A DNA stretch of 64,000 nucleotides from Nonlabens ulvanivorans (GTDB lineage: Bacteria; Bacteroidota; Bacteroidia; Flavobacteriales; Flavobacteriaceae), in assembly GCF_000732625.1 (NCBI RefSeq), contig NZ_JPJI01000023.1:186001-250000 (forward strand), written 5' to 3'. Position numbers and translations under genes: made by a program. Of the stretch, positions 571 through 61,303 are shown piece after piece. The notes beneath the pieces are model-generated. The model did no database searches. It was not told the DNA's origin and was given only the letters and a program-made list of their open reading frames with translations. Position 1 is the stretch's first letter. Each line of letters starts with the position of its first letter.

Positions 571-1677
571 CTATTTCCAGCGTTTTGGTGGTTTTCCTGC
601 GTTGGTGAAGAAAAGTCCTAGTTGCGTAAAGACTAGAAGTATTTCTAAAAAGGGTATAAATGGTATAATATCGCTTTCACGAAAGCGAGATAAACCTTTC
701 CCTACAACTAACCAGACAATGGTGTATCTTAAAATCACTAATCCTAGGATATACAACCAATTGATCCCAAATATAAAGCCTACTATTGAAGCTATAAAGA
801 AGCCAATCTGAGAGAAAAAATAAAGTCCTAATAAGAATTTATGTTTGCCTTTATAATAAGAAGCAGTATTGATATGGCGGCGTTTTTGAGTCCACCATTT
901 AGTCCATGTGTTTTTAGGAGTGCTTACTGTAAATGCGTCGGGTTCGATAATTACTGAAGTATTATCCTTAGTAGCTGCTTGATTTACAAAAAGATCATCA
1001 TCACCACCTAGTACCTTCATATGATCTATGAAACCGCTGACGTCATAAAATTGCTTTGAGGTGTAAGCTAGATTGCGACCTACTCCCATATATGGATTCC
1101 CGTGCAATGCGTAACTCATATACTGTATGGCAGTTATGCCAGTTTCATATCTAATTAGAGCATTAAGAATTGAATACTTTTTTTTCTCATAACCACCGTA
1201 ACCTAATACAATACTTTTATGATTAGTAAAGCCGCTGGCCATAGCTTTTAACCAGTTATTACTTGCCGGTTTGCAATCTGCATCTATAAAGATTAGATTT
1301 TCATTAATGGCCTTTTTGATGCCTAGAGTAAGTGCGTATTTTTTATTTCCCCAAAAACTTTCGTTATTTACAACATCTACCTTTTTAACTCTGGCATCCA
1401 GATCTTGAAAATGCTCTATAACCTCTAATGTGTCATCAATAGAAGCATCATTGATTAATATGATTTCAAAGTTAGGATGAGTTTGCTGTAGTAGTAAGGG
1501 AACTAGTGTTTTGAGGTTCTCTTGTTCATTTTTTGAACATACAATGACAGATACTGCATCTTGCGATGTATTATTTAGAGATGATTTATAAAAACCAACT
1601 CGAGCCAAAAAAAAGTAATATATTATATTAACAAGCACAAATCCCGCCAGGACTATAAACGCTATGCCTATTTCCAT
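571..1677 (-). CDS. Membrane-bound family 2 glycosyltransferase
   Basis: A 368-residue inner-membrane GT2 enzyme, probably transferring a sugar from a nucleotide donor to a lipid or polymer; the substrate is unknown. One N-terminal membrane helix (about 4-26) precedes a GT-A domain (about 42-270) with the donor-binding D132-A-D134, the acceptor-site GGDDD at about 224-228 and a QKRRH motif at 264-268, which stands for the QxxRW motif of processive enzymes. Three further hydrophobic segments lie at about 281-305, 306-325 and 338-356. It sits 7 nt after the small Cys-rich membrane protein gene and is likely cotranscribed with it. Near the C-terminus, RFRESD (331-336) is encoded by a copy of the recurrent palindrome. 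Confidence 0.85.
   Translation of the reverse strand: MEIGIAFIVLAGFVLVNIIYYFFLARVGFYKSSLNNTSQDAVSVIVCSKNEQENLKTLVPLLLQQTHPNFEIILINDASIDDTLEVIEHFQDLDARVKKVDVVNNESFWGNKKYALTLGIKKAINENLIFIDADCKPASNNWLKAMASGFTNHKSIVLGYGGYEKKKYSILNALIRYETGITAIQYMSYALHGNPYMGVGRNLAYTSKQFYDVSGFIDHMKVLGGDDDLFVNQAATKDNTSVIIEPDAFTVSTPKNTWTKWWTQKRRHINTASYYKGKHKFLLGLYFFSQIGFFIASIVGFIFGINWLYILGLVILRYTIVWLVVGKGLSRFRESDIIPFIPFLEILLVFTQLGLFFTNAGKPPKRWK
672..687. repeat. Iterated palindrome copy 1 (one mismatch)
   Basis: CGCTTTCACGAAAGCG, one base off the consensus CGCTTTCGCGAAAGCG. It lies inside the glycosyltransferase gene, read on the minus strand as RFRESD. Confidence 0.8.
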
Positions 1678-1684
1678 CTTTTAA

Positions 1685-1888
1685 TTAAGATTCTAAAGAT
1701 GGGTTTTTACAATCTTGCTCTTCGGGTAATTTACCGCACATACCGCAAGCTTCACCATCCTTATTAAGAAAAGGGCTTTGACTAGCACAAGTTCCTGCAA
1801 ATTTCCCGTCTTTTTTTGCCCATATCTTGATAGCTATTCCCGCAACTGCAAGAGCTAATATACCTATAGTAATAAAGAGTAATTCCAT
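1685..1888 (-). CDS. Small membrane protein with four cysteines
   Basis: A 67-residue protein that I cannot assign a function. Residues 4-22 form one hydrophobic helix, followed by a short lysine-rich stretch and a soluble tail with C34, C48, C51 and C60. The CGMC pair (48-51) and the flanking cysteines could bind a metal or form disulfides, depending on which side of the membrane the tail faces. It is the first gene of a two-gene unit with the downstream glycosyltransferase (7-nt gap). The start codon at 1886-1888 is 4 nt after a TAAATTTG box, which supports both the start and expression. Confidence 0.7.
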   Translation of the reverse strand: MELLFITIGILALAVAGIAIKIWAKKDGKFAGTCASQSPFLNKDGEACGMCGKLPEEQDCKNPSLES

Positions 1889-1892
1889 AGTG

Positions 1893-1900
1893 CAAATTTA
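1893..1900 (-). promoter_or_regulatory. Putative -7 box (TAAATTTG) of the small Cys protein and glycosyltransferase operon
   Basis: Minus-strand TAAATTTG ends exactly 4 nt before the ATG at 1888. The same spacing occurs upstream of lipA, pyrE and rlmB, suggesting a leaderless transcript. No -33 TTG is obvious. Confidence 0.5.
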
Positions 1901-1921: not shown

Positions 1922-2953
1922 TTAATTCTGAATTAAATTCACTTCAGTTTCAATAGTGATTCCATATCTGTTTTGAACCATCGATTGGATTTCTTTTGCA
2001 AGGGCAATTATTTCTTGTCCGCTAGCATTACCATGGTTTACTAGAACTAACGCTTGTTTATCATGTACACCAGCATCACCACGTCGTTGACCTTTAAAGC
2101 CACATTGATCTATAAGCCAGCCAGCAGGTACTTTTACTTGCTTTTCATTTACTGGGTAATGCGGTATTGATGGATGCATTCTTATGAGGTCTTCATAATA
2201 ACTTTTTTCAATAATAGGATTTTTGAAAAAACTACCGCTATTACCTATCACTTTTGGGTCAGGTAATTTGCTGCTCCTTATATTAATTACAGCTTGTGCA
2301 ACAGATTGTATGGATGGCTCTATTTGTAGGTTCTCTAATTCGTTTAGGATTGCACCATAACTAGTTTTGAGCTGGTAATCATTTGTTTTTGTGATATCTG
2401 TAAGCTTAAAAGTTACGGACGTTATTACATATTTGCCTAAAGCTTCATTCTTAAAGATGGATTCTCTGTAACCAAATTTACAATCTTCTAAATGGAGTGT
2501 TTTTACATCACCTGTTTTAATATTCATAACGGTGCATGAAACAAAAGTATCCTTTAACTCCACTCCATATGCACCTATATTTTGAATAGGAGAGGTGCCT
2601 ACATTACCAGGTATGAGAGCCATGTTCTCAATTCCAGCCCAATTATTTTCAATGCAAAAAATGACAAATTCATGCCAGTTTTCTCCTGCCATTGCTTGTA
2701 CAAACACATGTTCATTATCTTGTTTCAATAAATCTATTCCTTTAAGATTTACATGAACGACAGGTCTTTTAATATCATTAAGTAGTAACATATTACTACC
2801 GCCACCTAAAAGAAATACTTCCTCATTGTAATAATAAGCAAGCACTTCTCTAAGTTGCTGTATAGTAGATACAGATGTATATGCTTTTGCAAAAGCAGAT
2901 ATTCCAAAGGTGTTATGCTCTTTAAGAGAGAAGTGTGATCTTATCTCAATCAC
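1922..2953 (-). CDS. murB: UDP-N-acetylmuramate dehydrogenase MurB
   Basis: Cytoplasmic FAD enzyme that reduces UDP-GlcNAc-enolpyruvate to UDP-MurNAc with NADPH, the second committed step of peptidoglycan precursor synthesis. The 343-residue length and the YRESIF segment (161-166) mark the E. coli-like type I form. The FAD-binding LGGGSNMLL is at 49-57, IPGNVGTSPIQNIGAYG at 113-129, and the catalytic serine loop GNSGSFFKNP at 237-246 (proton-donor Ser240). The C-terminal ETEVNLI carries the conserved glutamate. Its start overlaps the end of the upstream aminotransferase gene by 4 nt, so the two are translationally coupled. Confidence 0.96.
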   Translation of the reverse strand: MIEIRSHFSLKEHNTFGISAFAKAYTSVSTIQQLREVLAYYYNEEVFLLGGGSNMLLLNDIKRPVVHVNLKGIDLLKQDNEHVFVQAMAGENWHEFVIFCIENNWAGIENMALIPGNVGTSPIQNIGAYGVELKDTFVSCTVMNIKTGDVKTLHLEDCKFGYRESIFKNEALGKYVITSVTFKLTDITKTNDYQLKTSYGAILNELENLQIEPSIQSVAQAVINIRSSKLPDPKVIGNSGSFFKNPIIEKSYYEDLIRMHPSIPHYPVNEKQVKVPAGWLIDQCGFKGQRRGDAGVHDKQALVLVNHGNASGQEIIALAKEIQSMVQNRYGITIETEVNLIQN

Positions 2954-6099: not shown

Positions 6100-8733
6100 A
6101 TGTCCTTAGCAGCAAAATATGATTCAAAAACCACAGAAGATAAGTGGTATCAGTACTGGATGGAGAATGATTTTTTTAAATCAGTTCCAGACGAGCGTGA
6201 AAGTTACACGATTGTCATTCCACCACCTAATGTTACAGGTGTACTGCACATGGGTCATATGCTTAATAATACAATTCAAGATGTTCTTATAAGAAGGGCA
6301 CGTTTAAAAGGTTACAATGCATGTTGGGTGCCCGGTACAGACCATGCATCGATAGCTACAGAGGCAAAAGTTGTTAAGAAACTTAAAGAGCAAGGCATTG
6401 ATAAAAATGACTTGAGTAGAGAAGAGTTTCTTGCACATGCTTGGGACTGGACAGATGAGTACGGTGGTATTATTCTGGAGCAACTTAAAAAATTAGGAGC
6501 CAGTTGTGATTGGTCTCGTACTAAATTTACGCTCGATGATGACATGTCAGCTTCTGTAATCAAGGTCTTTGTAGACTTATACAATAAGGGTATGATTTAT
6601 CGTGGTTTCCGTATGGTAAATTGGGATCCAGAGGCACAGACTACTCTTAGTGATGAAGAGGTGATTTATGAAGAACGTAATGGTCACTTATACCATTTAA
6701 AATATCAGATTAAAGGAAGCAATGATTTTATTTCAATTGCAACCACACGTCCCGAGACTATCCTAGGAGACACAGCAATCTGCGTACATCCAGATGATGA
6801 TCGATATACAGATCTAGTAGGTAAAACAGTTATCGTACCTATTGTAAATCGTGAGATTCCTGTAATCGCAGATGAATATGTCGATATGGAGTTTGGAACA
6901 GGAGCACTAAAGATTACTCCTGCACATGATGAAAACGATAAGAAGATAGGAGAGACGCATAAATTAGAAGTAATTGATATATTCAATGCAGACGCGACTT
7001 TAAATAGCTATGGATTGCATTATGCAGGTAAAGATCGATTTCTTGTGCGTAAAGAAATATCCAATGAGCTCGAGGAAAAAGGCTTCTTAATTAATAAAGA
7101 AAACCATGTTCATAAAGTAGGAACTAGTGAGCGCACTGGAGCTGTAATTGAGCCACGATTGAGTGATCAATGGTTTTTAAAAATGGAAGACCTTGCCCAG
7201 CCTGCAATTAAAGCAGTGCGTGAGGATATAGTAGAATTATTACCAGCAAAATTTAAGAGCACTTATTTTCACTGGATGGAAAATGTACGCGATTGGAATA
7301 TTTCACGTCAATTAATGTGGGGACAACGTATACCAGCTTATTTCTATGGAGATGGTAAGGAAGATTTTGTAGTTGCTACCTGTATTGAAGATGCGATTAC
7401 GCTTTCGCGAAAGCGAACTAATAATGACAACCTGCAAGCATCAGATTTACGTCAGGAAAATGATGTTCTCGATACATGGTTCTCTAGTTGGTTATGGCCT
7501 ATAAGTGTGTTTAATGGTGTGCTTGAGCCAGAAAACGAAGAAATCAATTACTATTATCCTACTAGAGATTTAGTGACAGGCCCAGATATTTTATTCTTTT
7601 GGGTTGCACGTATGATAGTTGCCGGATATGAATTAAGAGATGAGAAACCATTTGACAAAGTATATCTAACGGGATTAGTACGTGATAAACAACGTCGTAA
7701 AATGTCGAAATCTCTCGGTAATTCTCCAGATGCTCTAGGGTTAATAGAGAATTATGGAGCAGATGGTGTTAGAGTAGGACTTTTATTGAGTGCTGCTGCA
7801 GGAAATGATATTATGTTTGATGAAGACCTATGCCAGCAAGGTAAGGGCTTTGTAAATAAAATGTGGAATGCTTATCGATTAATTGATGGATGGGAAGTTG
7901 ATGAAACACTATCTCAACCAGCACATGCTCTACAAGGTTTAAACTGGTATAAATCGAGATTTGCTCAAGTCTTAAATGAGGTCGAGGACCACTATTCTAA
8001 ATATAGAATAAGCGATGTGCTCATGACGAGCTATAAGTTAATATATGATGACTTTTGTGGTTGGTTACTTGAAATTATAAAACCAGAATATCAAAAACCT
8101 ATAGATCCTAAAACACTTTTTGAGGTAATTGCACTTTTTGAAGATAATTTGAGGTTAATGCATCCATTTACTCCTTTTATTACTGAAGAGTTATGGCAAT
8201 CGATTGCCGCTAGAGATGTAAAAGATGCTTTGTGTATTAACACTTGGCCAGTTGCTGGTACGATAGATCAATCATTATTAAGTGATTTTGAACTGGTTCA
8301 AGATGTGATTTCTGGAATAAGAACTGTACGTAAGGAAAAGCAAATAAGCTTTAAGAATGAGATTACCTTGAACGCCATTAATAATGAGGAGTTGTCAGGT
8401 GAATATGACAGTCTTATTATGAAAATGGGTAACGTTTCTCAAATACATCTAGTTGAAGAACAAGTAAGTGGTGCAGCTAGTTATCGTGTGAAGTCTAATG
8501 AGTATTTCATACCGTTAGAAGGAAATATAGATGTCGCTGCAGAAATTGAAAAACTGTCTGGAGAGCTTAAGAGAGCTCAAGGGTTTTTAATTGGTGTTCA
8601 AAAAAAGCTAGGAAACGAAAGGTTTGTTAATAATGCTGCCGTTGAGATAGTTGATAAAGAAAAACAAAAAGAAGCTGATACACTTGCAAAAATTGAAACA
8701 ATAGAGGCTAGTATGAAAGCTTTGAAGGGATAG
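6100..8733 (+). CDS. valS: Valyl-tRNA synthetase
   Basis: Class Ia aminoacyl-tRNA synthetase charging tRNA-Val, with an editing domain that removes misactivated threonine; 877 residues, normal for the family. The ATP-binding HMGH (HIGH variant, 50-53) follows PPPNVTGVL, the CP1 editing domain holds the TTRPET motif, and KMSKS is at 534-538. A C-terminal coiled coil (last ~70 residues, rich in E/K/L) is the usual tRNA-binding arm. A palindrome copy at 7400-7415 is translated as TLSRKR within the catalytic domain region (434-439). Single-gene unit ending at a strong terminator. Confidence 0.98.
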   Translation: MSLAAKYDSKTTEDKWYQYWMENDFFKSVPDERESYTIVIPPPNVTGVLHMGHMLNNTIQDVLIRRARLKGYNACWVPGTDHASIATEAKVVKKLKEQGIDKNDLSREEFLAHAWDWTDEYGGIILEQLKKLGASCDWSRTKFTLDDDMSASVIKVFVDLYNKGMIYRGFRMVNWDPEAQTTLSDEEVIYEERNGHLYHLKYQIKGSNDFISIATTRPETILGDTAICVHPDDDRYTDLVGKTVIVPIVNREIPVIADEYVDMEFGTGALKITPAHDENDKKIGETHKLEVIDIFNADATLNSYGLHYAGKDRFLVRKEISNELEEKGFLINKENHVHKVGTSERTGAVIEPRLSDQWFLKMEDLAQPAIKAVREDIVELLPAKFKSTYFHWMENVRDWNISRQLMWGQRIPAYFYGDGKEDFVVATCIEDAITLSRKRTNNDNLQASDLRQENDVLDTWFSSWLWPISVFNGVLEPENEEINYYYPTRDLVTGPDILFFWVARMIVAGYELRDEKPFDKVYLTGLVRDKQRRKMSKSLGNSPDALGLIENYGADGVRVGLLLSAAAGNDIMFDEDLCQQGKGFVNKMWNAYRLIDGWEVDETLSQPAHALQGLNWYKSRFAQVLNEVEDHYSKYRISDVLMTSYKLIYDDFCGWLLEIIKPEYQKPIDPKTLFEVIALFEDNLRLMHPFTPFITEELWQSIAARDVKDALCINTWPVAGTIDQSLLSDFELVQDVISGIRTVRKEKQISFKNEITLNAINNEELSGEYDSLIMKMGNVSQIHLVEEQVSGAASYRVKSNEYFIPLEGNIDVAAEIEKLSGELKRAQGFLIGVQKKLGNERFVNNAAVEIVDKEKQKEADTLAKIETIEASMKALKG
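7400..7415. repeat. Iterated palindrome copy 2 (exact core)
   Basis: Exact CGCTTTCGCGAAAGCG inside valS, read in the frame giving L-S-R-K-R. Confidence 0.9.
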
Positions 8734-13919: not shown

Positions 13920-14627
13920 TTGCAAATAGTCAAATTACATGCCACTACATCAACAAATGATGAATTAAAAGCACGCTTACGCGAAAGCGAAACACAGCAC
14001 CTAACTGCTATTTATAGTTTGTCACAGTCACAAGGTCGTGGTAATCGAGGTTCGGTATGGCAAACTGAAGATGGTAAAAATTTGACATTCAGCGTTTTAG
14101 TCTCAGATAATCTATCTGGGTTAACACCGTTTAAACTGAATCAAATCGTGTCTGTTGCTATGATTGAATGGCTTAAATCAGATTTAAATGTACAAGCCAA
14201 AATAAAATGGCCTAACGACATCCTGTCAGTTCAGATGAAGCTCGCCGGTATTCTAATTGAAAATACGTATCAAAAAGGTCAATGGATTCATTCTATTGTA
14301 GGTATTGGACTTAATGTAAATCAAGAAGAATTTGAAAATTTACCACGAGCAATATCTTTAAAAAATCTTACCGGTAAAAATTTTAAACTCGAAGAGCTTT
14401 TGTTACAGTTTCTTTTTCATTTAGACTACGCTCTTAACAATAGAACACAAACCATTGAAAAGTATCTTAAATTTTTATTTAAGTATCGTCAGGAAATGAA
14501 TTTTAGTATTAATAATCAGGATGTGGTCGCTACCGTACATGGAGTAACAGAAAACGGTGAATTGCTCCTTCAAAAAGATGGGCAAATCACCGCTTATGAT
14601 TTAAAACAAGTGCAATGGAATTATTAA
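13920..14627 (+). CDS. birA: Biotin--[acetyl-CoA-carboxylase] ligase (BirA, no HTH)
   Basis: Activates biotin as biotinyl-AMP and transfers it to the carrier lysine of acetyl-CoA carboxylase. The 235-residue protein lacks the N-terminal DNA-binding domain of E. coli BirA, so it is a plain ligase. Visible are ATTSTNDELKAR (8-19), the biotinyl-AMP loop GRGNRGSVW (about 39-47), KIKWPNDIL (about 99-107) and GIGLNVN. The start is TTG at 13920: an in-frame stop at 13905-13907 and the conserved STND so near the N-terminus leave no ATG choice. It converges on the SRPBCC gene with a 4-nt overlap. Confidence 0.93.
   Translation: MQIVKLHATTSTNDELKARLRESETQHLTAIYSLSQSQGRGNRGSVWQTEDGKNLTFSVLVSDNLSGLTPFKLNQIVSVAMIEWLKSDLNVQAKIKWPNDILSVQMKLAGILIENTYQKGQWIHSIVGIGLNVNQEEFENLPRAISLKNLTGKNFKLEELLLQFLFHLDYALNNRTQTIEKYLKFLFKYRQEMNFSINNQDVVATVHGVTENGELLLQKDGQITAYDLKQVQWNY
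13974..13989. repeat. Iterated palindrome copy 3 (one mismatch)
   Basis: CGCTTACGCGAAAGCG inside birA, read as R-L-R-E-S-E, a different frame from the copy in valS. Confidence 0.75.
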
Positions 14628-17060: not shown

Positions 17061-18807
17061 TGTAATGTACTTTATAGATTGGATAAGTTAAATGGGCTTT
17101 TTCATAATTAGGTGATCTATCATGCAGCCATTTCAATTGTGCATAATTACTTTGAGCAAATTTATTATTTGACTTTTTAATGGAATCAAACTCCTTTTTA
17201 AGCTCTGGATTAGTTGAAAGTAATTCTTTTGCAGTGCTTTCAAATACGTAGGTCGAGAAGCCCTCTTTTTGCTGTAAAATAGTATCAAAAAAATTCCATT
17301 TAAAAAAGGAATCTTGACCTTGTGGTTCTAGGGTCTCTATGATATATCTTATTCCTGGTTGAGCAGTAGGGATGATGATATCGCTTTCGCGAAAGCGTAA
17401 TTCTATATCTTTACTGCTTACCACAACATTAGAGTGTGGATAATGACCTTCATATGCGCTACTAGATGTGTCGTAGTCTTCTATACGATACTGTGAAACG
17501 GTCATGGTGCTGTCTGCAGGGAAAACTTCCATCTGAATATTATTCATGCGCATTAATTCAATGATTTCCCACTGACCTTGTGGGATAACATAGAATTCTG
17601 GTACTTTTATTGAGTCTACAGCAATATAATGATTATAGTATGGTGTGTTTTTCTCAAAAGGCTGGTTGCGGTCATAGGTGAGGAGTTGCTGTCCAGTTAA
17701 TTCACTGACATTGCGCAACGCTTTATAACCTCTAAAAAGTAATGTGTCTGCTTTGGTCTTATCAACAACATGGTTGATAGCATAGAAACTAGCATTGTTA
17801 AATTCTTTAAAAGATGAAGCTCTAGCTGTTTTTATCGCTTCTATATTTTGAGAGCCTAGGGCAATCGTCTCTTCCATTATTGCTTGTGTTCCTAGAACTC
17901 TATCTTTATAAGGCTTAAGCATATGTGTTTCTATCATAAAGCCTAAGGTGTTCCATAGGGTAGTGTATCCAGTGCTATAACGAGGATGATCCATAAATTG
18001 AGAAAATCCATTTTCTGGTGATACACCATAAACATTTACATATGGAGTCATAGCATGATTACGTTTAAGCATGCGTTGCTCTAGTTCTTTTTGTAAGTCG
18101 CTGTAGAGGTAATTACCTGCTGCCTTACCTAATTTATTGTGTTGTGTAAATAGATGGGTTAAAGTGTATTGATAGTCTGCACCATTACTTACATGATTGT
18201 CTATAAATATATCTGGATTTACTTTATGATAGATTTGATAAAACGATTGAGCGTTACGACTGTCTGCTTTTATGAAATCTCTATTGAGGTCATAATTTCT
18301 GGCGTTACCTCTAAATCCATATGCTTCTGGTCCGTTTTGATTAGTCCTAGTATGGCTGTTGCGATTTAAAGAGCCACCTACATTATATATGGCAATCGCA
18401 GAAAATATAAGATTTTCTGGAGCATCTAGTTTACCAGTTGCTAAATCTCTCATTAACATCATGGTAGCGTCTATACCATCACTTTCACCTGGATGAATAC
18501 CATTATTAACAAGGATTTTAATTTTGTCTTCATTTACAGAGCTCCAGTTGATATTACTTTTTGAAAAACTAATGAGGTGCAATGGTAGACCACTGTCAGT
18601 GATTCCTATCTCTTCCATTTCTATGGTAGAATAGGTAGTAGCTAAGTTTTCATAAAATGAAATAACCTCTTGATAAGTGGCTGTTTGATTTCCATTACCT
18701 TTTTCAAATGGTGTTTGCCAGTCTTTTATCTCTTCGGCAATTTGTTTATCAGACTGCTGACACGATATGATTATGGTTATTAAGAATAGATAAGTAATTA
18801 GTCTCAT
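17053..18807 (-). CDS. M14 family zinc carboxypeptidase lipoprotein
   Basis: A 584-residue metallopeptidase with lipoprotein signal (lipobox IIISC, Cys16), so anchored in the periplasm or outer membrane. The M14 zinc pair HPGE is at H105/E108 in NNGIHPGESDGIDATM; the third ligand histidine is in FIDNHVSNGADYQYT; a catalytic glutamate lies in GFMIETHMLKPY. The C-terminal 250 residues are a less conserved region rich in aromatic residues. A peptide or peptidoglycan substrate is possible. Overlaps coaD by 4 nt. Contains a palindrome copy translated LRFRESD. Confidence 0.88.
   Translation of the reverse strand: MRLITYLFLITIIISCQQSDKQIAEEIKDWQTPFEKGNGNQTATYQEVISFYENLATTYSTIEMEEIGITDSGLPLHLISFSKSNINWSSVNEDKIKILVNNGIHPGESDGIDATMMLMRDLATGKLDAPENLIFSAIAIYNVGGSLNRNSHTRTNQNGPEAYGFRGNARNYDLNRDFIKADSRNAQSFYQIYHKVNPDIFIDNHVSNGADYQYTLTHLFTQHNKLGKAAGNYLYSDLQKELEQRMLKRNHAMTPYVNVYGVSPENGFSQFMDHPRYSTGYTTLWNTLGFMIETHMLKPYKDRVLGTQAIMEETIALGSQNIEAIKTARASSFKEFNNASFYAINHVVDKTKADTLLFRGYKALRNVSELTGQQLLTYDRNQPFEKNTPYYNHYIAVDSIKVPEFYVIPQGQWEIIELMRMNNIQMEVFPADSTMTVSQYRIEDYDTSSSAYEGHYPHSNVVVSSKDIELRFRESDIIIPTAQPGIRYIIETLEPQGQDSFFKWNFFDTILQQKEGFSTYVFESTAKELLSTNPELKKEFDSIKKSNNKFAQSNYAQLKWLHDRSPNYEKAHLTYPIYKVHYND
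17382..17397. repeat. Iterated palindrome copy 4 (exact core)
   Basis: Exact CGCTTTCGCGAAAGCG inside the M14 peptidase gene, read on the minus strand as RFRESD. Flanks (ATATC on the left) resemble those of copy 1. Confidence 0.9.
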
Positions 18808-41142: not shown

Positions 41143-41145
41143 GCT

Positions 41146-42277: not shown

Positions 42278-42279
42278 TT

Positions 42280-42558: not shown

Positions 42559-42566
42559 TCTAAGCT

Positions 42567-42977: not shown

Positions 42978-42985
42978 AAAAGGAT

Positions 42986-43708: not shown

Positions 43709-43717
43709 TAGCTAGAG

Positions 43718-44140: not shown

Positions 44141-44146
44141 GTAGTT

Positions 44147-44329: not shown

Positions 44330-44338
44330 ACGAACATT

Positions 44339-44596: not shown

Positions 44597-44964
44597 TGTT
44601 ACAACAGGAATCAAGACTTAAGGTGGCTGATAATACGGGAGCAAAAGAAGTGCTTTGTATTAGGGTGTTAGGTGGTACTAAAAGAAGGTATGCGTCAGTA
44701 GGAGATAAAATTGTTGTTTCTGTTAAAGAAGCTACACCTAATGGTAATATCAAAAAGGGTGCTGTTTCTACCGCAGTAGTAGTAAGAACTAAAAAAGAGG
44801 TGCGTCGACCAGATGGATCTTATATACGATTTGACGATAATGCTTGTGTGTTATTGAATCCTAACTCGGAAATGAGAGGTACTCGTGTATTTGGGCCGGT
44901 TGCGAGAGAATTGCGTGATAAGCAATTTATGAAAATAGTTTCATTAGCTCCAGAAGTATTATAA
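44596..44964 (+). CDS. rplN: 50S ribosomal protein L14
   Basis: Intersubunit bridge protein and the binding site of RsfS, whose gene is also in this window; 122 residues. [31 protein letters not shown] and [10 protein letters not shown] match the family end to end. Coupled to rpsQ by TAATG. Confidence 0.99.
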
Positions 44965-44973
44965 TTTACAATC

Positions 44974-45285
44974 ATGGTAAAGGTAAAAATTAAAACAGGA
45001 GATAAAGTACGTGTACTTGCTGGAGAACATAAAGGTTCTGAAGGTGTTATTACTCGTATTTTTAAAGACAAAAATAAAGCCATCGTGGAAGGTGTGAATA
45101 TGGTCTCAAAGCATGAGAAGCCAAGCGCTACCAATCCACAGGGTGGGATTAAAGAAATTGAAGCTCCAATGCAGATTTCTAATTTGTCATTGATTGACAA
45201 TAATGGTAAGACAACTCGTGTTGGTTATCGTATGGAAGGTGATAAGAAGGTTCGATTTGCTAAAACAACAAACGATTTAATTTAG
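44974..45285 (+). CDS. rplX: 50S ribosomal protein L24
   Basis: Assembly initiator of the 50S subunit; 103 residues with a KOW motif ([20 protein letters not shown], about 5-24). In the standard position between rplN and rplE. Confidence 0.98.
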
Positions 45286-45287
45286 TC

Positions 45288-45839
45288 ATGGCATATATTC
45301 CTAGACTCAAGACAGAATATAAGGAGCGTGTTGCTGCTTCTTTAAAAGAGGAATTCGGTTACAATAATGTAATGGAGATTCCTAAGTTGCAAAAGATAGT
45401 ATTAAGCCGTGGTGTTGGTGCTGCAGTTGCCGATAAAAAATTGATTGATTATGCTCTTGATGAGTTGACAACAATTACTGGTCAAAAAGCTGTTGCTACG
45501 CTTTCTAAGAAAGATGTTGCTTCCTTTAAGTTACGTAAAGGTATGCCTATAGGTGTTAAGGTGACGTTGAGGGGTGAGCGTATGTACGAATTTCTAGATC
45601 GTTTAGTTACGGTTGCATTACCGCGTGTTAGAGATTTTCAAGGTATCAAAGCTAGTGGTTTTGATGGTAGAGGAAATTATAATTTAGGAATTACTGAGCA
45701 AATCATCTTTCCAGAAATAAATATAGATAAGGTTAATAAAATCTCTGGTATGGATATTACATTCGTTACTAGTGCGCAAACTGATAAAGAGGCAAAGTCT
45801 CTTCTTGGTGAGCTTGGTTTACCTTTCAAAAAGGATTAA
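45288..45839 (+). CDS. rplE: 50S ribosomal protein L5
   Basis: Central protuberance protein that binds 5S rRNA; 183 residues. [15 protein letters not shown] and the conserved [12 protein letters not shown] and [18 protein letters not shown] segments are clear. Two nt after rplX. Confidence 0.99.
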
Positions 45840-45843
45840 TACA

Positions 45844-46113
45844 ATGGCAAAAGAATCAATGAAAGCGCGTGAGCGCAAACGTGAGGCACTAATTGCAAAG
45901 TACGCTGACAAGCGCAAAGCTTTAAAGGAGGCTGGAGATTATGAAGCTCTTCAGAAGTTACCTAAAAATGCTTCTCCTGTAAGACAACACAATAGATGTA
46001 AGCTTACTGGTAGGCCAAAAGGTTATATGAGACAGTTCGGTATTTCCCGTGTTCTTTTTAGAGAGATGGCAAATCAAGGTTTAATCCCAGGAGTTAAAAA
46101 AGCTAGTTGGTAA
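45844..46113 (+). CDS. rpsN: 30S ribosomal protein S14, zinc-independent form
   Basis: Head protein near the A site. I use ATG 45844 ([14 protein letters not shown], 89 aa), 4 nt after rplE; the longer frame from 45772 overlaps rplE. Only a single cysteine ([17 protein letters not shown]) is present, so this is the zinc-free type, not the short CxxC...CxxC form. The C-terminal [11 protein letters not shown] is canonical. Confidence 0.97.
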
Positions 46114-46132
46114 TTAGCTTAAATATAGCATT

Positions 46133-46531
46133 ATGAATACAGATCCAATCGCAGATTATTTAACTAGAATCAGAAACGCAGTACGTGCTAATCACCGTGT
46201 TGTTGATGTTCCTGCTTCTAAGTTAAAAAAGGAAATTACTAAGATTTTATTTGATCAAGGTTATATTCTAAGTTATAAGTTTGAAGAGCATTCAGCTCAG
46301 GATAACATTAAGATAGCTTTGAAATATGATAGAGAAACTAAGGAGTCAGTTATAAAGGATATCCAAAGGTTAAGTAAGCCTGGTTTACGTAAATATGCTG
46401 GTGCAGGTGAGTTACCTAGAATTCTTAATGGCTTAGGTGTTGCCATTGTTTCAACTAGTAAAGGTGTAATGACAGATAAACAAGCCCGTACAGAGAATGT
46501 AGGTGGTGAGGTTCTTTGTTACGTATATTAA
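46133..46531 (+). CDS. rpsH: 30S ribosomal protein S8
   Basis: Platform assembly protein; 132 residues. TDPIADYLTRIRNAVRA opens the family profile, and the C-terminal GIAIVSTSKGVMTDKQAR-like segment with GGEVLCYVY closes it. S8 represses the spc operon in E. coli by binding mRNA; that site is not visible to me here. Confidence 0.98.
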   Translation: MNTDPIADYLTRIRNAVRANHRVVDVPASKLKKEITKILFDQGYILSYKFEEHSAQDNIKIALKYDRETKESVIKDIQRLSKPGLRKYAGAGELPRILNGLGVAIVSTSKGVMTDKQARTENVGGEVLCYVY

Positions 46532-46541
46532 AAAATTAGAT

Positions 46542-47084
46542 ATGTCTAGAATAGGAAATAATCCCGTAGCAATTCCAGCTGGTGTTACCGTAAAGGTTGA
46601 CAACGGAGTTATAAATGTAGAAGGTAAGTTAGGTAAGCTTACTCAGGTTTACTCGGATGTTGCCATTAAGGTAGAAGGAGATGAAGTTTTAGTAACTCGT
46701 CCTTCTGATTCCAAAGATCATAAGGCTAAGCATGGATTATATAGGTCTTTAGTTTTTAATATGATTGCTGGTGTTTCTGAAGGTTGGTCTAAAGAGCTTG
46801 AACTCGTCGGTGTTGGTTATAGAGCATCTAATCAAGGACAGGTCTTGGATCTAGCTTTAGGTTATTCACACAATATTGTGTTGGATATAGCTAAGGAAGT
46901 AACGGTAGAAACAATTTCTGAGAAAGGTAAGAACCCGAAGATTAAATTATCTTCTTTTGACAAGCAGTTAGTTGGTCAAGTAGCGGCAAAAATAAGATCT
47001 TTCAGAAAACCTGAGCCTTATAAAGGAAAAGGTGTTAAATTTGTGGGGGAACAATTAAGAAGAAAAGCTGGTAAATCAGCATAA
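46542..47084 (+). CDS. rplF: 50S ribosomal protein L6
   Basis: Large-subunit protein near the factor-binding site; 180 residues from ATG 46542 ([12 protein letters not shown]), chosen because the upstream frame overlaps rpsH. Segments [22 protein letters not shown] (two-part duplication) and [11 protein letters not shown] are typical. Confidence 0.98.
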
Positions 47085-47098
47085 TAGATAAGTATATT

Positions 47099-47446
47099 AT
47101 GGCATTTTCAAAGTCTGAAAGAAGAAATAAAATCCGCAGAAGAATTCGTAAGAATATTTCGGGAACAGCTGAACGTCCTCGTTTATCGGTGTACCGTAGT
47201 AATAAAGAGATTTACGCTCAAGTTATCAATGACGTAGATGGAGTAACTATAGCGTCAGCTTCATCAAGAGATTTAAAGTCTAATGGCGAAAAAATTTCTA
47301 TAGCAAATGAGGTTGGAAAGGCTGTAGCTGAGAAGGCTAAAGCTGCTGGTGTTGAAACGGTATCGTTTGATCGTGGAGGTTATCTTTATCACGGTCGCGT
47401 ATTGTCTTTGGCTAATGGGGCTAGAGAAGCTGGTCTTAAATTTTAA
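47099..47446 (+). CDS. rplR: 50S ribosomal protein L18
   Basis: 5S rRNA-binding protein; 115 residues. [18 protein letters not shown] (about 25-42) and the C-terminal [20 protein letters not shown] are family signatures. Located 14 nt after rplF. Confidence 0.98.
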
Positions 47447-47463
47447 TTACAAACATTACAGTA

Positions 47464-47988
47464 ATGTACCAAAAATATAAAAACGTAGAATTAGTAAAAC
47501 CTAGTGGGCTTGATCTTAAAGATCGTTTAGTGGGTGTTCAACGTGTTACTAAGGTAACAAAAGGTGGACGTGCTTTTGGATTTTCAGCGATTGTCGTTGT
47601 TGGTGATGAAAGTGGAGTAGTAGGTCATGGTTTAGGTAAGTCTAAAGAGGTTTCTGAGGCTATTTCTAAGGCTGTTGAGGATGCTAAGAAAAACTTGGTT
47701 AGAATTCCTCTAGTTAAAGGTTCAATACCACATGAGCAAAAGGGTAAATTTGGTGGAGCAAGAGTTTTATTAATTCCTGCTGCAACAGGTACTGGAGTAA
47801 TTGCCGGTGGTGCTATTCGTGCAGTTCTTGAGGCTGTGGGTGTACATGATGTTCTTTCTAAGAATCAAGGTTCTTCAAATCCTCACAATGTTGTAAAAGC
47901 TACCTTCGATGCTCTGTTGCAATTGCGTAATGCTCATACAGTGGCGAAACAAAGAGGTGTTTCTTTAGATAAAGTATTTAACGGTTAA
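47464..47988 (+). CDS. rpsE: 30S ribosomal protein S5
   Basis: Small-subunit accuracy protein; 174 residues. The double-stranded RNA-binding part is [20 protein letters not shown] (about 22-41), and the C-terminal half carries [20 protein letters not shown]. No spectinomycin-site deletion is apparent. Confidence 0.98.
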
Positions 47989-47998
47989 TCATACGATA

Positions 47999-48178
47999 AT
48001 GGCAAAGTTAAAAATAAAAAAAGTGCGTAGCGCAATTAAAAGACCGTTAAGACAAAAACGTACTCTGGAAGCGTTGGGTTTACGTAAAATGAATCAGGTT
48101 GTAGAGCATGATGATACTCCTGTTATTCAGGGAATGATTGCTAAAGTTGAACATTTAGTCTCTGTTGAGAAGGCTTAA
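47999..48178 (+). CDS. rpmD: 50S ribosomal protein L30
   Basis: A 59-residue frame (ATG 47999, TAA 48178) between rpsE and rplO. MAKLKIKKVRSAIKRP, RQKRTLEALGLRKMN and the C-terminal MIAKVEHLVSVEKA match L30. It is the expected gene at this place in the spc cluster; spacing is 10 nt from rpsE and 11 nt to rplO. Confidence 0.97.
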   Translation: MAKLKIKKVRSAIKRPLRQKRTLEALGLRKMNQVVEHDDTPVIQGMIAKVEHLVSVEKA

Positions 48179-48189
48179 AAAGAAAATAA

Positions 48190-48642
48190 ATGAGTTTAAA
48201 TAATCTTAAACCTGCTGCAGGTTCAGTTAAAAAATCTGCCAAGATCATTGGTCGTGGTCAGGGTTCTGGTAAAGGTGGTACAGCTACACGTGGTCACAAA
48301 GGGGCTAAATCTCGTTCTGGTTATTCTAAGAAAATCGGTTTTGAGGGTGGTCAGATGCCTTTACAAAGACGTGTTCCTAAGTTTGGTTTTACAAATATCA
48401 ATCGTAAAGAGTATGCAGGTGTCAATATAGATGTTTTGCAAGCTTATGTAGATGAAGGACGTTTGAGTGATGTAATTACTATTGAGAATTTAATAGAGGA
48501 GCGTCTTGTCGATAAAAATGATTTAGTTAAGATATTAGGTCGTGGTGAATTGAAAGCTACTATTAACATAAGTGCTCATAAGTTTACTGCAACTGCAAAG
48601 GCTGCCATTGAAAAAGCTGGTGGTCAAGCACAAACCTTATAA
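48190..48642 (+). CDS. rplO: 50S ribosomal protein L15
   Basis: Late-assembly 50S protein; 150 residues. The glycine-rich basic N-terminal region ([18 protein letters not shown], about 22-39) and [18 protein letters not shown] (about 49-66) are diagnostic. It lies immediately before secY. Confidence 0.98.
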
Positions 48643-48651
48643 TCTTAATCG

Positions 48652-49989
48652 ATGAAATTTATAGAAACATTAAAAAATATTTGGAAAATTGATGAACTGA
48701 AAGATCGTATTATTATGACTTTCAGTTTGCTTCTTGTTTACCGTTTTGGTGCACAAGTAGTTCTTCCAGGAATAGATTCAAGTAAACTAGCTAGTTTCTC
48801 TGAAAATTTCGAGGGTGGTGGTATTGGTTTCGTCCTTAACGCTTTTACCGGTGGTGCTTTTTCAAATGCGTCAGTGTTTGCTTTAGGTATAATGCCGTAT
48901 ATATCGGCTAGTATTGTTGTGCAGCTTATGGGGATTGCGATTCCTTATTTACAGAAGCTACAAAAAGAAGGTGCTAGTGGTCAAAAGAAGATTAATCAAA
49001 TTACTAGATGGTTAACTATTGGTATTTGTTTAATTCAGGCTCCAAGTTATCTTTTAAGTCTTGGTACCTTAGGTGTTCCTAGTGATGCCTATTTGATGCC
49101 TGATAATATGAATCTTTTTCTTGTTAGTAGTACTATTATTCTTGTTACTGGTTGTGTTTTTGCGATGTGGTTAGGAGAAAAAATTACTGACAAGGGTATT
49201 GGAAATGGTATATCGCTGTTGATTATGGTTGGTATTATAGCTACATTACCTCAGGCGTTCGTACAAGAATTTGCTGCTAGAGTCACGGGTACTGGTGGTG
49301 TCATGTTAGTTTTGGTTGAGTTATTAGTTTGGTTTGTTGTAATTTTGCTATGTATTATGCTTGTAATGGCTGTTCGTAAGATTCCTGTACAATACGCAAG
49401 ACGAGCTGCATCAGGCGGTTATGAAAAAAATGAACAAGGATCTAGGCAGTTTATTCCTTTAAAGTTAAATGCATCTGGTGTAATGCCTATTATATTCGCT
49501 CAAGCAATTATGTTTGTTCCAGCAGCTTTAGGTCAGCTAGATACTTCTTGGGCTACAACAGTTCAAACTGCTTTCGGTGATATTTTTGGTTTTTGGTATA
49601 ATTTAGTTTTTGCATTATTAATTATAATATTTACTTATTTTTACACCGCAATAACTGTCCCTACTAATAAGATGGCCGATGATTTAAAAAGAAACGGTGG
49701 TTTTATTGCGGGAATTAGACCTGGAACAGAAACTGCGGATTATTTAGATAAAATTATGTCGCAAATTACTTTGCCTGGATCCATTTTCCTTGCTTTAGTA
49801 GCGATATTTCCAGCTTTTGTTTCTCTTATGGGAGTAACACAGCAATGGGCATTGTTTTATGGAGGTACATCATTATTAATTATGGTAGGAGTAGCGATAG
49901 ATACTATGCAACAAATAAATTCATACTTGTTAAATCGTCATTATGATGGCTTAATTAAAACAGGTAAAAATAGAAAAGCAGTAGCGTAA
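48652..49989 (+). CDS. secY: Protein translocase subunit SecY
   Basis: Central channel of the Sec translocase; 445 residues with about ten membrane helices. Recognisable are [24 protein letters not shown] (helix 2), [11 protein letters not shown] and the cytoplasmic [11 protein letters not shown], plus the C-terminal [14 protein letters not shown]. Its stop overlaps infA as TAATG, so infA translation is coupled. Confidence 0.98.
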
Positions 49990-50204
49990 TGGCAAAACAG
50001 TCGGCAATAGAACAAGACGGTTCCATTATAGAGGCATTGTCTAACGCAATGTTTAGGGTAGAATTAGAAAACGGGCACGTAGTAACGGCACACATATCTG
50101 GAAAGATGCGTATGCATTATATTAAGTTGCTTCCAGGAGATAAAGTAAAATTAGAAATGAGTCCTTACGATTTAACGAAAGCAAGGATCACTTATAGGTA
50201 CTAA
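49989..50204 (+). CDS. infA: Translation initiation factor IF-1
   Basis: OB-fold factor occupying the A site during initiation; 71 residues. [37 protein letters not shown] and [21 protein letters not shown] are the classic segments. Between secY and rpmJ, as in most Bacteroidota. Confidence 0.99.
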
Positions 50205-50205
50205 T

Positions 50206-50322
50206 ATGAAAGTAAGAGCATCGATTAAAAAGAGAAGTGCTGATTGTAAAATTGTACGCCGTAAAGGTCGTCTTTATGTAATCAACAAAAAGAATCCAAA
50301 ATTTAAACAAAGACAAGGTTAA
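50206..50322 (+). CDS. rpmJ: 50S ribosomal protein L36, zinc-free form
   Basis: A 38-residue frame (ATG 50206) 1 nt after infA and 3 nt before rps[11 protein letters not shown] and [23 protein letters not shown] identify L36. Of the usual zinc ligands (three Cys and one His) only C14 remains (SADCK); the other positions hold S, N and F, so it cannot bind zinc in the usual way. Confidence 0.97.
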
Positions 50323-50325
50323 GCT

Positions 50326-50700
50326 ATGGCTAGAATTGCAGGGGTAGATATACCTAAAAATAAACGTGGAGAAGTCTCATTGACTTACATATACGGTATC
50401 GGACGTAATCGTGCAAAACAAGTTCTTATCGATACGGGTGTTGGCTTAGATAAAAAGGTGACAGATTGGAATGATGATGAAATTGGTAAGATTCGTGCAG
50501 CCATAGGTGAATTCACTATAGAAGGTGAATTAAGATCTGAGACACAGCTTAATATTAAGCGTCTAATGGATATTGGTTGCTATCGTGGTATTCGCCACAG
50601 ATCTGGGCTTCCACTTAGAGGTCAAAGAACTAAGAACAACTCACGTACTCGTAAAGGTAAACGTAAGACTGTTGCTAACAAGAAAAAGGCAACTAAATAA
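50326..50700 (+). CDS. rpsM: 30S ribosomal protein S13
   Basis: Head protein contacting tRNAs and 16S rRNA; 124 residues. [27 protein letters not shown]-type N-terminus and the C-terminal [23 protein letters not shown] (helix plus basic tail) are conserved. First gene of the alpha-type section. Confidence 0.98.
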
Positions 50701-50711
50701 TAAGTATTGAT

Positions 50712-51101
50712 ATGGCAAAGTCTAAAACAGTATCAAAAAAGCGTAAAGTAATTGTTGAATCAGTTGGTGAAGTTCATATTTCATCTTCTTTCAATAACAT
50801 ATTGGTTTCTTTGACAAATAAAAAAGGAGAAGTTATTTCATGGTCATCTGCAGGTAAGATGGGTTTCCGTGGTTCTAAGAAAAACACTCCTTATGCAGCT
50901 CAATTGGCTGCTGAAGATGCATCCAAAGTTGCACATGAAGCTGGTCTTCGTAAGGTAAAGGCTTACGTTAAAGGTCCAGGTAATGGTCGTGAAAGTGCTA
51001 TTCGTAGTATTCACAATTCAGGTATAGAAGTAACTGAAATTATTGACGTTACTCCATTACCACACAATGGTTGTCGTCCACCTAAACGTCGTAGAGTTTA
51101 A
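50712..51101 (+). CDS. rpsK: 30S ribosomal protein S11
   Basis: Platform protein near the mRNA exit; 129 residues. [20 protein letters not shown] and the C-terminal [18 protein letters not shown] are diagnostic. An 84-nt gap follows before rpsD, unusually long for this cluster. Confidence 0.98.
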
Positions 51102-51185
51102 TTAATTATTAATAACGAGTGGTTATGTGGCTGTCGAAGGATATTGACCTGAATTCACAGTACATCATTCAATAAATTTTGTAAA
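51102..51185 (+). other. Long rpsK-rpsD gap, possible regulatory leader
   Basis: Among the spc/alpha genes most gaps are under 20 nt; this is 84 nt. It contains a 16-codon frame (51125-51175, [16 protein letters not shown]) and mixed sequence less A/T-rich than the other gaps. An S4-binding control site or small leader is possible; no known motif is recognised. Confidence 0.35.
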
Positions 51186-51791
51186 ATGGCAAGATATAGA
51201 GGTCCTAAGGCAAAAATTGCACGTCGATTCAGAGAACCAATTTTTGGCCCTAGTAAAGCTTTGGAGAAGAAAAATTATCCTCCAGGTATGCACGGTAACG
51301 CAAGACGCCGTGGAAAAGAATCAGAGTATGCGGTTCAGCTTAAAGAAAAACAGAAAGCTAAGTATACTTATGGAGTGCTAGAGAAGCAATTCCGTTTAAT
51401 GTTTGAAAAGGCTGTTCGTAGTACTGGTATTACTGGTGAGGTATTACTTCAGTTATGTGAGTCACGTTTAGATAATGTGGTTTACAGAATGGGTGTTGCA
51501 AAAACTCGTCGTGGAGCACGTCAGTTAGTTTCACACAGACATATTACTGTTAATGGAGAGTTAGTTAATATTCCTTCTTATCAATTGAAGCCTGGTGATA
51601 TTGTCGCTGTTCGTGAAAAATCAAAATCTTTAAGTGCTATTGATCAGTCCTTATCCAGTAATGAACATGTTTACGATTTTATTACATTCAATAAATCAAG
51701 CATGTCTGGAACTTTCGTTAGTGTACCTGAAAGAATGCAAATTCCTGAAAACATTAAAGAACAGTTGATTGTTGAATTGTACTCTAAATAA
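51186..51791 (+). CDS. rpsD: 30S ribosomal protein S4
   Basis: Assembly initiator of the 30S body and S4-type RNA-binding domain protein; 201 residues. [20 protein letters not shown] is the start and [31 protein letters not shown] (S4 domain, about 92-122) the core. In E. coli S4 represses the alpha operon. Preceded by the long gap noted separately. Confidence 0.99.
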
Positions 51792-51814
51792 TAATTAATC
51801 CACAAAGTAATCTT

Positions 51815-52807
51815 ATGGCAATATTAAATTTCCAAAAGCCGGATAAAGTAATCATGATTGATTCTACTGATTTTGAAGGTAAATTCGAATTCAGACCTTT
51901 AGAGCCAGGATATGGTCTTACTGTGGGAAATGCTCTTCGTAGAGTATTACTTTCATCACTTGAAGGGTTTGCTATTACTTCTATACGTATAGAAGGTGTG
52001 GATCACGAATTCTCAACAATCGAAGGAGTAGTTGAAGATGTTACTGAAATCATTTTAAATTTCAAGCAGATTAGATTCAGACGTCAGATTGATGAAGTTG
52101 ATAGTGAGGTTGTAAATGTTTCTTTCTCAGGAAAGGATACTTTTACCGCTGGAGATATGCAGAAGTATATTTCAGGTTTTCAGGTTTTGAATCCTGAAAT
52201 GGTTATCTGTAATACAGAATCATCTGTTAGTCTTAATTTAGAATTAACTATTGAGAAGGGTAGAGGATATGTTCCAGCTGAAGAGAATAAGAATCCTAAC
52301 GCAGCTATTGGTACAATAGCTATTGATTCTATCTTTACTCCTATAAAGAATGTAAAATATAGTATTGAAAACTATCGTGTAGAACAAAAAACTGATTATG
52401 AAAAACTAGTTTTTGAAATATCTACTGATGGTAGTATACACCCAAAGCAGGCTTTAACTGAGGCTGCTAAAACACTTATCCATCACTTCATGTTGTTCTC
52501 TGATGAGAGAATCACTCTTGAAGCTGATGAGATTGCACAAACAGAGACTTATGATGAAGAAAGCCTTCACATGAGACAATTGCTTAAGACTAAACTTGTA
52601 GATATGGAACTTTCTGTACGTGCATTAAATTGTCTTAAAGCTGCTGAAGTTGAAACACTAGGTGATTTAGTTTCTTACAATAAGAATGATTTGATGAAAT
52701 TCAGAAACTTCGGTAAGAAATCTTTAACTGAGCTTGAAGAACTTGTGAACGTTAAAGGACTTAACTTCGGTATGGATTTATCAAAATATAAACTTGACCG
52801 TGACTAG
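51815..52807 (+). CDS. rpoA: RNA polymerase alpha subunit
   Basis: Dimerises to scaffold the RNA polymerase core; its C-terminal domain contacts UP elements and activators. 330 residues: the assembly motif [21 protein letters not shown] (two parts; about 27-47), and alpha-CTD at about 250-315 ([39 protein letters not shown]). Confidence 0.99.
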
Positions 52808-52835
52808 TTTAGGCTAGTTAAAGAAACAAAATAAG

Positions 52836-53309
52836 ATGAGACACGGAAAGAAATTTAATCATTTAGGTAGAAAGACAGCACACCGTAAGGCAATGCTGGC
52901 AAATATGGCTTGTTCATTAATTGAACACAAGCGTATTAATACTACTGTAGCAAAGGCTAAAGCTGTAAAGCAGTTTGTAGAGCCGTTAATTACTAAATCT
53001 AAAGAAGATACAACTCATAATCGTCGTTTAGTATTTGCTAAGCTTAGAAGTAAAGAAGCTGTAACTGAGTTATTCAGAGACGTTTCTTCTAAGGTAGCTG
53101 ATCGTCCAGGTGGATATACTCGTATTATTAAGTTGGGTAATCGTTTAGGAGATAATGCTGATATGGCAATGATTGAGCTTGTAGATTTTAATGAAATTTA
53201 CAGCCCTAACGAAGGTAAGAAGAAAAATACTAGACGTAGTCGTCGTAGTAAATCTTCTACTGCTGCTCCAGTTGAAACTTCAACAGACAATACTAATGAA
53301 GAAGAGTAA
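52836..53309 (+). CDS. rplQ: 50S ribosomal protein L17 with C-terminal extension
   Basis: Large-subunit protein near the exit site. The first ~115 residues match L17 ([48 protein letters not shown]). The product is 157 residues, about 30 longer than E. coli L17, ending in a basic then acidic low-complexity tail ([14 protein letters not shown], ...DNTNEEE). Last gene of the supercluster, followed by a strong terminator. Confidence 0.98.
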
Positions 53310-53331
53310 TATCTTTGATAATATGTAGATA

Positions 53332-53367
53332 AAAGGATCAATGCTTTCGCATTGGTCCTTTTTTTTT
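53332..53367 (+). terminator. Intrinsic terminator after rplQ
   Basis: A 13-bp stem (AAAGGATCAATGC with GCATTGGTCCTTT, one G-T wobble), TTTC loop, and a run of T's; 22 nt after the rplQ stop. Ends the ribosomal cluster. Confidence 0.9.
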
Positions 53368-53379
53368 AAATTATTTTTG
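53352..53379 (+). promoter_or_regulatory. Promoter of carA-eno, inside the rplQ terminator
   Basis: TTG (53352-53354), 17 nt, TATTTTTG (53372-53379), then 16 nt to the carA ATG. The -33 element lies in the right arm of the terminator stem. Confidence 0.65.
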
Positions 53380-53395
53380 AAAAACAATTTTTATT

Positions 53396-55791
<2,396 letters not shown>

Positions 55792-55811
55792 TTATCGACT
55801 GAATACTAGTA

Positions 55812-55827
55812 CGCTTTCGCGAAAGCA
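55812..55827. repeat. Iterated palindrome copy 9 (one terminal mismatch)
   Basis: CGCTTTCGCGAAAGCA in the gap after eno, immediately before the terminator. Confidence 0.8.
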
Positions 55828-55835
55828 AATATTTT

Positions 55836-61203: not shown

Positions 61204-61239
61204 TGTTTGAATAAGTTTTTGGGAACTATCAGACAGTTG

Positions 61240-61270
61240 AAACGGCGATCATTATTGGTCGTCGTTTTGT
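61240..61270 (+). terminator. Probable intrinsic terminator after the metalloprotease gene
   Basis: AAACGGCGA pairs with TCGTCGTTT (one G-T wobble) across a 10-nt loop and is followed by TTTTGTTTTG; weaker T-run than the other terminators. Confidence 0.7.
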
Positions 61271-61285
61271 TTTGTGATTGTAATT

Positions 61286-61303
61286 ACGCTTTCGCGAAAG
61301 CGT
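61286..61303. repeat. Iterated palindrome copy 10 (exact, 18 nt)
   Basis: Exact ACGCTTTCGCGAAAGCGT in the gap between the metalloprotease and gltA genes, 16 nt after the terminator. Confidence 0.9.

Follow-up and report, generated by a model that had tools for sequence, protein, structure and literature searches.

An 18-nt palindrome occurs ten times in a 64,000-nt stretch of the Nonlabens ulvanivorans genome (hereafter the window), within genes as well as between them, which raises the question of what keeps one sequence at all these places. A search with the 18-mer at up to three mismatches recovered ten matches in the window (Table 1) and none in 100 dinucleotide shuffles of it. These were the same ten copies reported in the initial annotation, whose starts lay one base too high for eight of them. 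The 14-base cores of seven sites were exact, two had one mismatch and one had two. As had been claimed, seven copies fell in genes according to the ORF calls, and their peptides showed that all three frames were used; the other three were intergenic. Most of the gene names first proposed for the site-bearing ORFs were backed by Pfam (GT2, valyl-tRNA synthetase, biotin ligase, DUF7033 and RarA/MgsA), the BamA-like name was marginal, with an Omp85 match barely over the cut-off (24.1 vs 24 bits), and the M14 name was left without a Pfam match at E ≤ 0.001. The nearest named relatives of this 584-aa protein were from Nonlabens ulvanivorans (88%) and Flavobacteria bacterium BBFL7 (85%). A weaker palindrome at 2883, GCTTTTGCAAAAGC, is possibly a decayed or half-formed site.

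Table 1. Palindrome copies and related features in the 64-kb window. Names marked † were given from the sequence only.
Feature	Position	14-base core	Context	Peptide
Motif copy	671..688	673-686, 1 mismatch	GT2 glycosyltransferase gene, ORF 571-1677	RFRESD
Weak variant GCTTTTGCAAAAGC	2883..2896	2 mismatches, still palindromic	murB-like gene†	AFAKA
Motif copy	7399..7416	exact	valS, ORF 6100-8733	TLSRKR
Motif copy	13973..13990	from 13975, 1 mismatch	biotin-ligase gene, ORF 13920-14627	RLRESE
Motif copy	17381..17398	exact	gene of 584-aa protein (M14-like in the initial annotation), ORF 17053-18807	RFRESD
Motif copy	24668..24685	from 24670, 2 mismatches	DUF7033 gene, ORF 24191-25504	TLPRKR
Motif copy	26983..27000	exact	rarA/mgsA, ORF 26168-27463	AFAKAD
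Motif copy	35908..35925	exact	Omp85-like gene, ORF 34603-36267	LSRKRG
Motif copy	39841..39858	exact 18-mer	intergenic, fusA-like ORF† 37363-39504 / ORF at 39896	
Longest site-free stretch (≤2 mismatches)	39859..55810		starts at a ribosomal-protein-like gene run†	
Motif copy	55811..55828	exact	intergenic, enolase-like gene† end 55791 / ORF at 55936	
Motif copy	61286..61303	exact 18-mer	intergenic, ORF end 61203 / citrate-synthase-like ORF† at 61474	

The motif has a nearly invariant core of 14 bases, GCTTTCGCGAAAGC, within an extended consensus of 24 bases, ATTACGCTTTCGCGAAAGCGTAAT, whose preferences are symmetric. The whole genome to which the window belongs as C23:186001-250000 (G000, 3.21 Mb) contained 566 exact cores and no copy of the reversed control pattern, confirming the suspicion that the palindrome is iterated genome-wide. 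In a 464-kb sample of this genome, made up of the window and further stretches, 85 cores were exact, 14 had one mismatch and 5 had two, where four order-3 Markov simulations gave averages of 0, 0 and 0.5; counts were far from expectation and copies were not confined to paralogous genes. The core accounted for 85 of the 148 perfect 14-base palindromes in the sample, any other being present at most twice, and for 85 of the 91 sequences of the form GCTTTnnnnAAAGC, with one compensated palindrome seen. No core arms at other spacers (0-6) were found in the sample, and only 12 of the 182 9-base half-sites lay outside full sites. This scarcity of spacer, loop and half-site variants indicates that the functional unit is the full double-stranded dyad, and an RNA or single-strand hairpin was rejected given that loop, stem or spacer variants were almost absent.

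Copies were evenly spread, one of the features for which the initial annotation had looked ahead. The 94 gaps in the G000 sample had a mean of 4615 bp and a coefficient of variation (CV) of 0.50, none was shorter than 1 kb (about 18 expected at random), and none of 20,000 simulated site sets was as even. Bins of 5 kb held 0, 1 or 2 sites in 15, 56 and 21 of 92 cases, with a dispersion of 0.37 (0.48 in genome G010). Successive gaps were uncorrelated, indicating local repulsion and not a lattice. Gaps were also measured in G010 (CV 0.58, 3/60 gaps under 1 kb), in Dokdonia pacifica (CV 0.62, 0/48) and in Dokdonia sinensis, both for exact sites (CV 0.73, 2/49) and for sites at up to one mismatch over 160 kb (CV 0.56, 3/45); in G226 the CV was 0.79 on 13 gaps. 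Genome G004 was indistinguishable from random by its CV (0.92 among the sites listed) because of a few very long gaps, and 5 of its 93 gaps were under 1 kb, against 18 expected among the same sites. Bins of low GC content were poorer in sites in G000, and the trend in G010 was not significant. The skew towards origin or terminus that had been envisaged was not observed: 20 evenly placed samples of the single-contig G010 chromosome contained 1-6 sites each, with no trend. Site density was thus shown to be about one per 4-5 kb, with close pairs avoided.

By mechanical ORF calls, under which 89% of bases were coding, 56 of 99 sites in the G000 sample and 54 of 80 in G010 lay in genes. The 110 genic sites among these 179 used all three phases (67, 22 and 21), and the remaining 69 were intergenic, so that by the ratio of the sampled counts site density was about six times higher between genes than within them. 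Intergenic density per kb was 0.88 in divergent, 0.87 in tandem and 0.62 in convergent spacers, and a promoter or terminator role for the bulk of the sites was rejected for want of a gene-orientation preference. Seven sampled copies encode AFAKA with Q as the next residue, and four of them (L123 site 851, L275, L277 and L290) were located, by eye, at apparent signal-peptide ends, so secretion signals may have accommodated the motif here.

Orthologous positions were compared in nine named Nonlabens loci and 20 further stretches, with some genomes represented in both sets. Either the site was kept or unrelated bases of equal length were present, as at the rarA/mgsA position, which aligned gap-free in relatives lacking the site; the exceptions were gaps at one intergenic site in L013, over two bases in L011 and over one base in L262, and alignment failed for three L009 sites and one L010 site. 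Sites therefore arise mostly by point substitution and not by insertion. The conservation at orthologous places anticipated in the initial annotation was found: in an intactness test on three exact-core window sites (mostly two of them), 20 of 28 site positions were fully identical at about 70% identity, against 1.6% of 20,680 control 14-mers; the figures were 5/5 vs 7.5% of 3577 controls at 76-85% identity, and 1/1 vs 14% of 1383 controls above 85%. The exact core in valS was present at the equal position in all six other aligned Nonlabens loci and in Dokdonia sinensis. Where five-codon blocks encoded identical peptides, all nucleotides were kept in 37 of 38 blocks at about 70% identity (183/5477 controls), in 8 of 9 at the middle distance (84/1507) and in 2 of 2 at the nearest (49/472), the blocks being overlapping and hence not independent. 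The motif is held by selection or drive acting on the DNA rather than on the proteins, which upholds the earlier view of the DNA as the selected entity, with drive added as a second possibility.

The places themselves differed between genera. In the gene of the 584-aa protein a site at alignment column 492 (up to one mismatch) was found in 11 of 12 Nonlabens rows, whereas all eight Dokdonia loci lacked it and had a site of their own at column 345. Among 17 Dokdonia sites with an aligned Nonlabens partner only one shared its place, and in the reverse comparison 7 of 21 Nonlabens sites did so, all of them in valS, in rows that repeat the same genes. With few places shared, number and spacing recur more than places.

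Exact copies numbered 288-857 in all 22 other Nonlabens genomes examined, and the same search found none in one family member of another genus or in 15 genomes of the order that belong to other families. With one mismatch allowed, 486-1058 sites were present in the eight named Dokdonia genomes checked (8/8), 23-57 in three of Leeuwenhoekiella, 3 in one Kordia and 5 in one Ulvibacter-like genome, with 0 or 1 matches to the reversed control in this set. Among 299 genomes of the family, 61 had at least one copy; three of these were Nonlabens, including the window's own, 56 had 1-19 copies, G226 (genus g205) had 408, and G242 had 857, at positions that, among those listed, coincided with the Dokdonia sinensis genome. 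An exact site was present in 9/9 named Nonlabens, 8/8 Dokdonia and 0/63 other named loci of a set of 84, and in a search of 149 genomes from the class the one that contains the window was alone in being dense, ten others having 1-4 copies. High copy number was thus limited to three genera among those sampled. Leeuwenhoekiella parthenopeia (G334), a relative of the dense Dokdonia, carried 25 exact copies over 16 contigs (57 at up to one mismatch), which could be relics of a lost system or transfers. A protein tree, computed without two long-branch rows (L083 and L036), grouped Dokdonia with G226 and Leeuwenhoekiella and separated this clade from Nonlabens; a single clade of the dense genera was not rejected (p-AU 0.159), so the motif may have arisen once or twice. 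No comparable motif of other genera appeared among the best-ranked 10- and 12-mers of their loci, in small samples.

Sites may be scarce in new or constrained DNA, to judge from the few regions looked at. In G004, no site at up to one mismatch was present in a 15.6-kb stretch that encodes an integrase and a relaxase, another site-poor region of this genome carried large RHS-type genes, and a G004 stretch with an ORF layout like that of the 16-kb gap in the window had a single one-mismatch site. A 30-kb stretch of Nonlabens phage P12024S had none at up to two mismatches. Very large ORFs of about 1800 and 1550 aa form two parallel sets, some 23 kb apart, in L305/L306 of G004, and the one such ORF tested contained an RHS repeat. 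A gene run at L304:3247-10718 includes an SbcC/SMC-like ATPase of 1133 aa, the only member of the run tested, and we take this run to resemble a Wadjet-type defence operon.

Taken as a whole, the motif points to a system that reads the whole chromosome, most likely for recognition of own-kind DNA or for chromosome organisation, and the sequence-specific binding protein or HIP-type element offered at the outset was the right class of explanation. Our preferred reading, tentative at a probability of about 0.45, is that the palindrome is a lineage-specific, uptake-type sequence for the recognition of self-DNA, read on double-stranded DNA and accumulated by molecular drive. A putative receptor at the cell surface or in the periplasm, part of a natural-transformation system, would favour few-kb fragments with one copy or more, and recombination of such fragments would spread copies through the population wherever protein constraint permits, until nearly each fragment-length of chromosome had one copy. 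Under this one-copy saturation the mean gap would approximate the fragment length, predicting fragments of about 4-5 kb, and Nonlabens and Dokdonia would share one common dialect. A birth-death model with saturating uptake gave mean gaps of 0.93-1.28 times the fragment length and a CV of 0.33-0.38, with no more than 2.2% of gaps shorter than 1 kb; the spacing data fit the uptake model in kind, in a toy simulation whose CV is lower than that observed.

Much of the pattern resembles the uptake sequences of Neisseriaceae (DUS) and Pasteurellaceae (USS), which, in the available sections of PMC1939737 and PMC7811141, are lineage-specific, have hundreds to thousands of copies in genic and intergenic positions and a point-mutation origin, are scarce in newly acquired or constrained DNA and, for USS, are claimed to be evenly spaced. 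Abundance and a relatively even spread are expected from biased uptake, according to the portion of PMC7811141 available. Within the Flavobacteriaceae, the accessible part of PMC7965970 describes Riemerella columbina, whose own DNA competes better than foreign DNA and for which only A/T-rich k-mers emerged as candidates, their function being left open by its authors. The motif differs from DUS and USS in several ways: it is perfectly palindromic over 14 nearly invariant bases (24 extended), it occurs in Bacteroidota, its density is one per 4-5 kb (about 1 kb for DUS/USS) with few close pairs, and its uptake bias is a prediction. Against uptake, known uptake sequences are not palindromes in the text available of PMC1939737, and a perfect dyad suits a dimeric intracellular protein. 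Haemophilus is less even, with 230 pairs within 100 bp (PMC7811141, in part), and evenness also varies among the genomes studied here, as G004 shows. PMC1939737, in the part available, cites Karlin's claim of even spacing and argues that uptake sequences are less even than a role in compaction needs, an argument by which the more even motif described here counts towards a nucleoid protein. A ComEC domain was found in all 12 genomes tested, equally in site-poor genera, and so did not discriminate. No report of competence in Nonlabens or Dokdonia was found in a literature search, and no partner protein or receptor was found among the families searched (ParB_N, ComEC and PF01555).

A serious possibility, to which we give somewhat less credence, is a whole-chromosome ruler, in which a dimeric nucleoid-associated protein would read the 24-bp palindrome about every 4-5 kb, bridging or marking the chromosome, with selection keeping the spacing and not the places. 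The perfect dyad, for which spacer, loop and half-site variants are nearly lacking, the extended symmetric AT-rich flanks, the strong repulsion between sites, their uniformity round the G010 chromosome and the lineage-specific places at similar spacing are all in its favour, and such a protein would also explain dyad and repulsion. Stretches of 13-20 kb that have one site at most are nevertheless tolerated, and no extra protein of the ParB/Noc type was seen: ParB_N had one match in 14 of 16 genomes and two in G019 (dense) and G066 (sparse), and such a protein was rejected given that no added member was common to the dense genera. Palindromic protein-binding sites, often genic, are known from matS/MatP, SBS/SlmA, NBS/Noc and parS/ParB. 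The matS, SBS, NBS and parS sites number in the tens at most and lie in particular zones of the chromosome, unlike the hundreds of copies described here, which are uniform in G010 and come with no added ParB member in dense genera. A macrodomain or nucleoid-occlusion site was set aside on the same grounds, there being no zone bias in the 20 G010 samples and no dedicated ParB/Noc-type protein among the ParB_N matches of the 16 genomes. A characterised nucleoid protein whose strict motif recurs in hundreds of uniform genic copies is not known to us.

An element like HIP1 of cyanobacteria, linked with a DNA methyltransferase and with repair or recombination, is an unlikely source of the pattern. 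HIP1, whose selection and periodicity were reportedly addressed by a study in 2018, has the sequence GCGATCGC, to which the longer motif of the Flavobacteriaceae, with a unit of at least 14 bp, is unrelated. The likeness lies in a highly iterated, genome-wide, lineage-specific palindrome of unsettled function (PMC4390886, in the sections available). The special role that had been suggested for the inner TCGCGA found no support: 85 of its 108 occurrences in 464 kb were within exact cores, and about 20 were left outside them, against 29.8 expected. The N6_N4_Mtase family PF01555, the only methyltransferase family searched, was present in 5/9 dense and 1/5 sparse genomes, and was not found in four dense ones, including the window's own; methylation of the inner hexamer is disfavoured by this lack of enrichment and of a PF01555 member common to dense genomes. 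Considerably less probable still is a Chi-like hot spot that protects or promotes the exchange of host DNA in recombination or repair. The density of Chi in E. coli is similar to that of the motif, and sites were absent from one phage stretch and one mobile element, but polarity defines Chi and a perfect palindrome has none, and avoidance of close pairs is not predicted. Least probable of all is an ordinary regulatory or structural sequence (operator, terminator, RNA hairpin or mobile palindromic repeat). The intergenic share of the sites is in keeping with it; their majority in genes in three frames, the like density in divergent, tandem and convergent spacers, the near absence of compensated palindromes and the mostly gap-free substitution contradict it for the bulk, and side roles could exist at single sites. 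REP/BIME elements are dispersed palindromes that are longer, mostly intergenic and spread by copying, unlike the single, frequently genic motif, and a REP-type mobile repeat was rejected, with substitution mostly gap-free and with sites often in genes. The motif is thus disfavoured as a regulatory or hairpin sequence, an insertion repeat, a site for an extra ParB/Noc protein or a macrodomain site.

The 12-mers of the motif were in none of 5.39 million published texts searched, subscription papers being mostly outside this set, and nothing on the motif was found among the papers listed for Nonlabens and Dokdonia on palindromes, repeats and competence; the accessible part of the Dokdonia donghaensis genome note contains no word starting with 'methyl' or 'motif'. 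As an uptake signal it would, as far as our literature search goes, have no precedent in Bacteroidota and no earlier palindromic counterpart, and competence and the size of fragments could be predicted from it in marine bacteria; as an organising site it would represent a new kind of chromosome architecture. In either case the motif is a ready bait for the protein that reads it.

Copies were also found outside the dense genera and in viral collections. At least 120 stretches of a viral collection carried the motif, nearly all with one site; L176, L145, L159 and L199 had two or three copies each, and are perhaps, as a guess, proviral edges of Nonlabens or Dokdonia hosts. Pairs of copies exactly 933 bp apart occurred in four genomes of other genera, and in several site-poor genera two copies at this distance lay in a 409-aa channel-like gene (L085:8360-9589, L088, L089, L093, L325-L328, L330 and L332). 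Judged by sequence, many genes under the few-copy clusters of 20 stretches were metal-efflux-, outer-membrane-channel-, repressor- or P-type-ATPase-like, and others were not. The channel protein was 97-99% identical among site-poor G137, Nonlabens G019 and Dokdonia G343/G337, and a parS-type reading of these clusters was rejected in favour of horizontal transfer on account of this identity across genera. At the DNA level the channel gene was 85-93% identical to that of G019, and the transfer therefore need not be recent. The motif seems to tag DNA that has moved between the dense genera and others.
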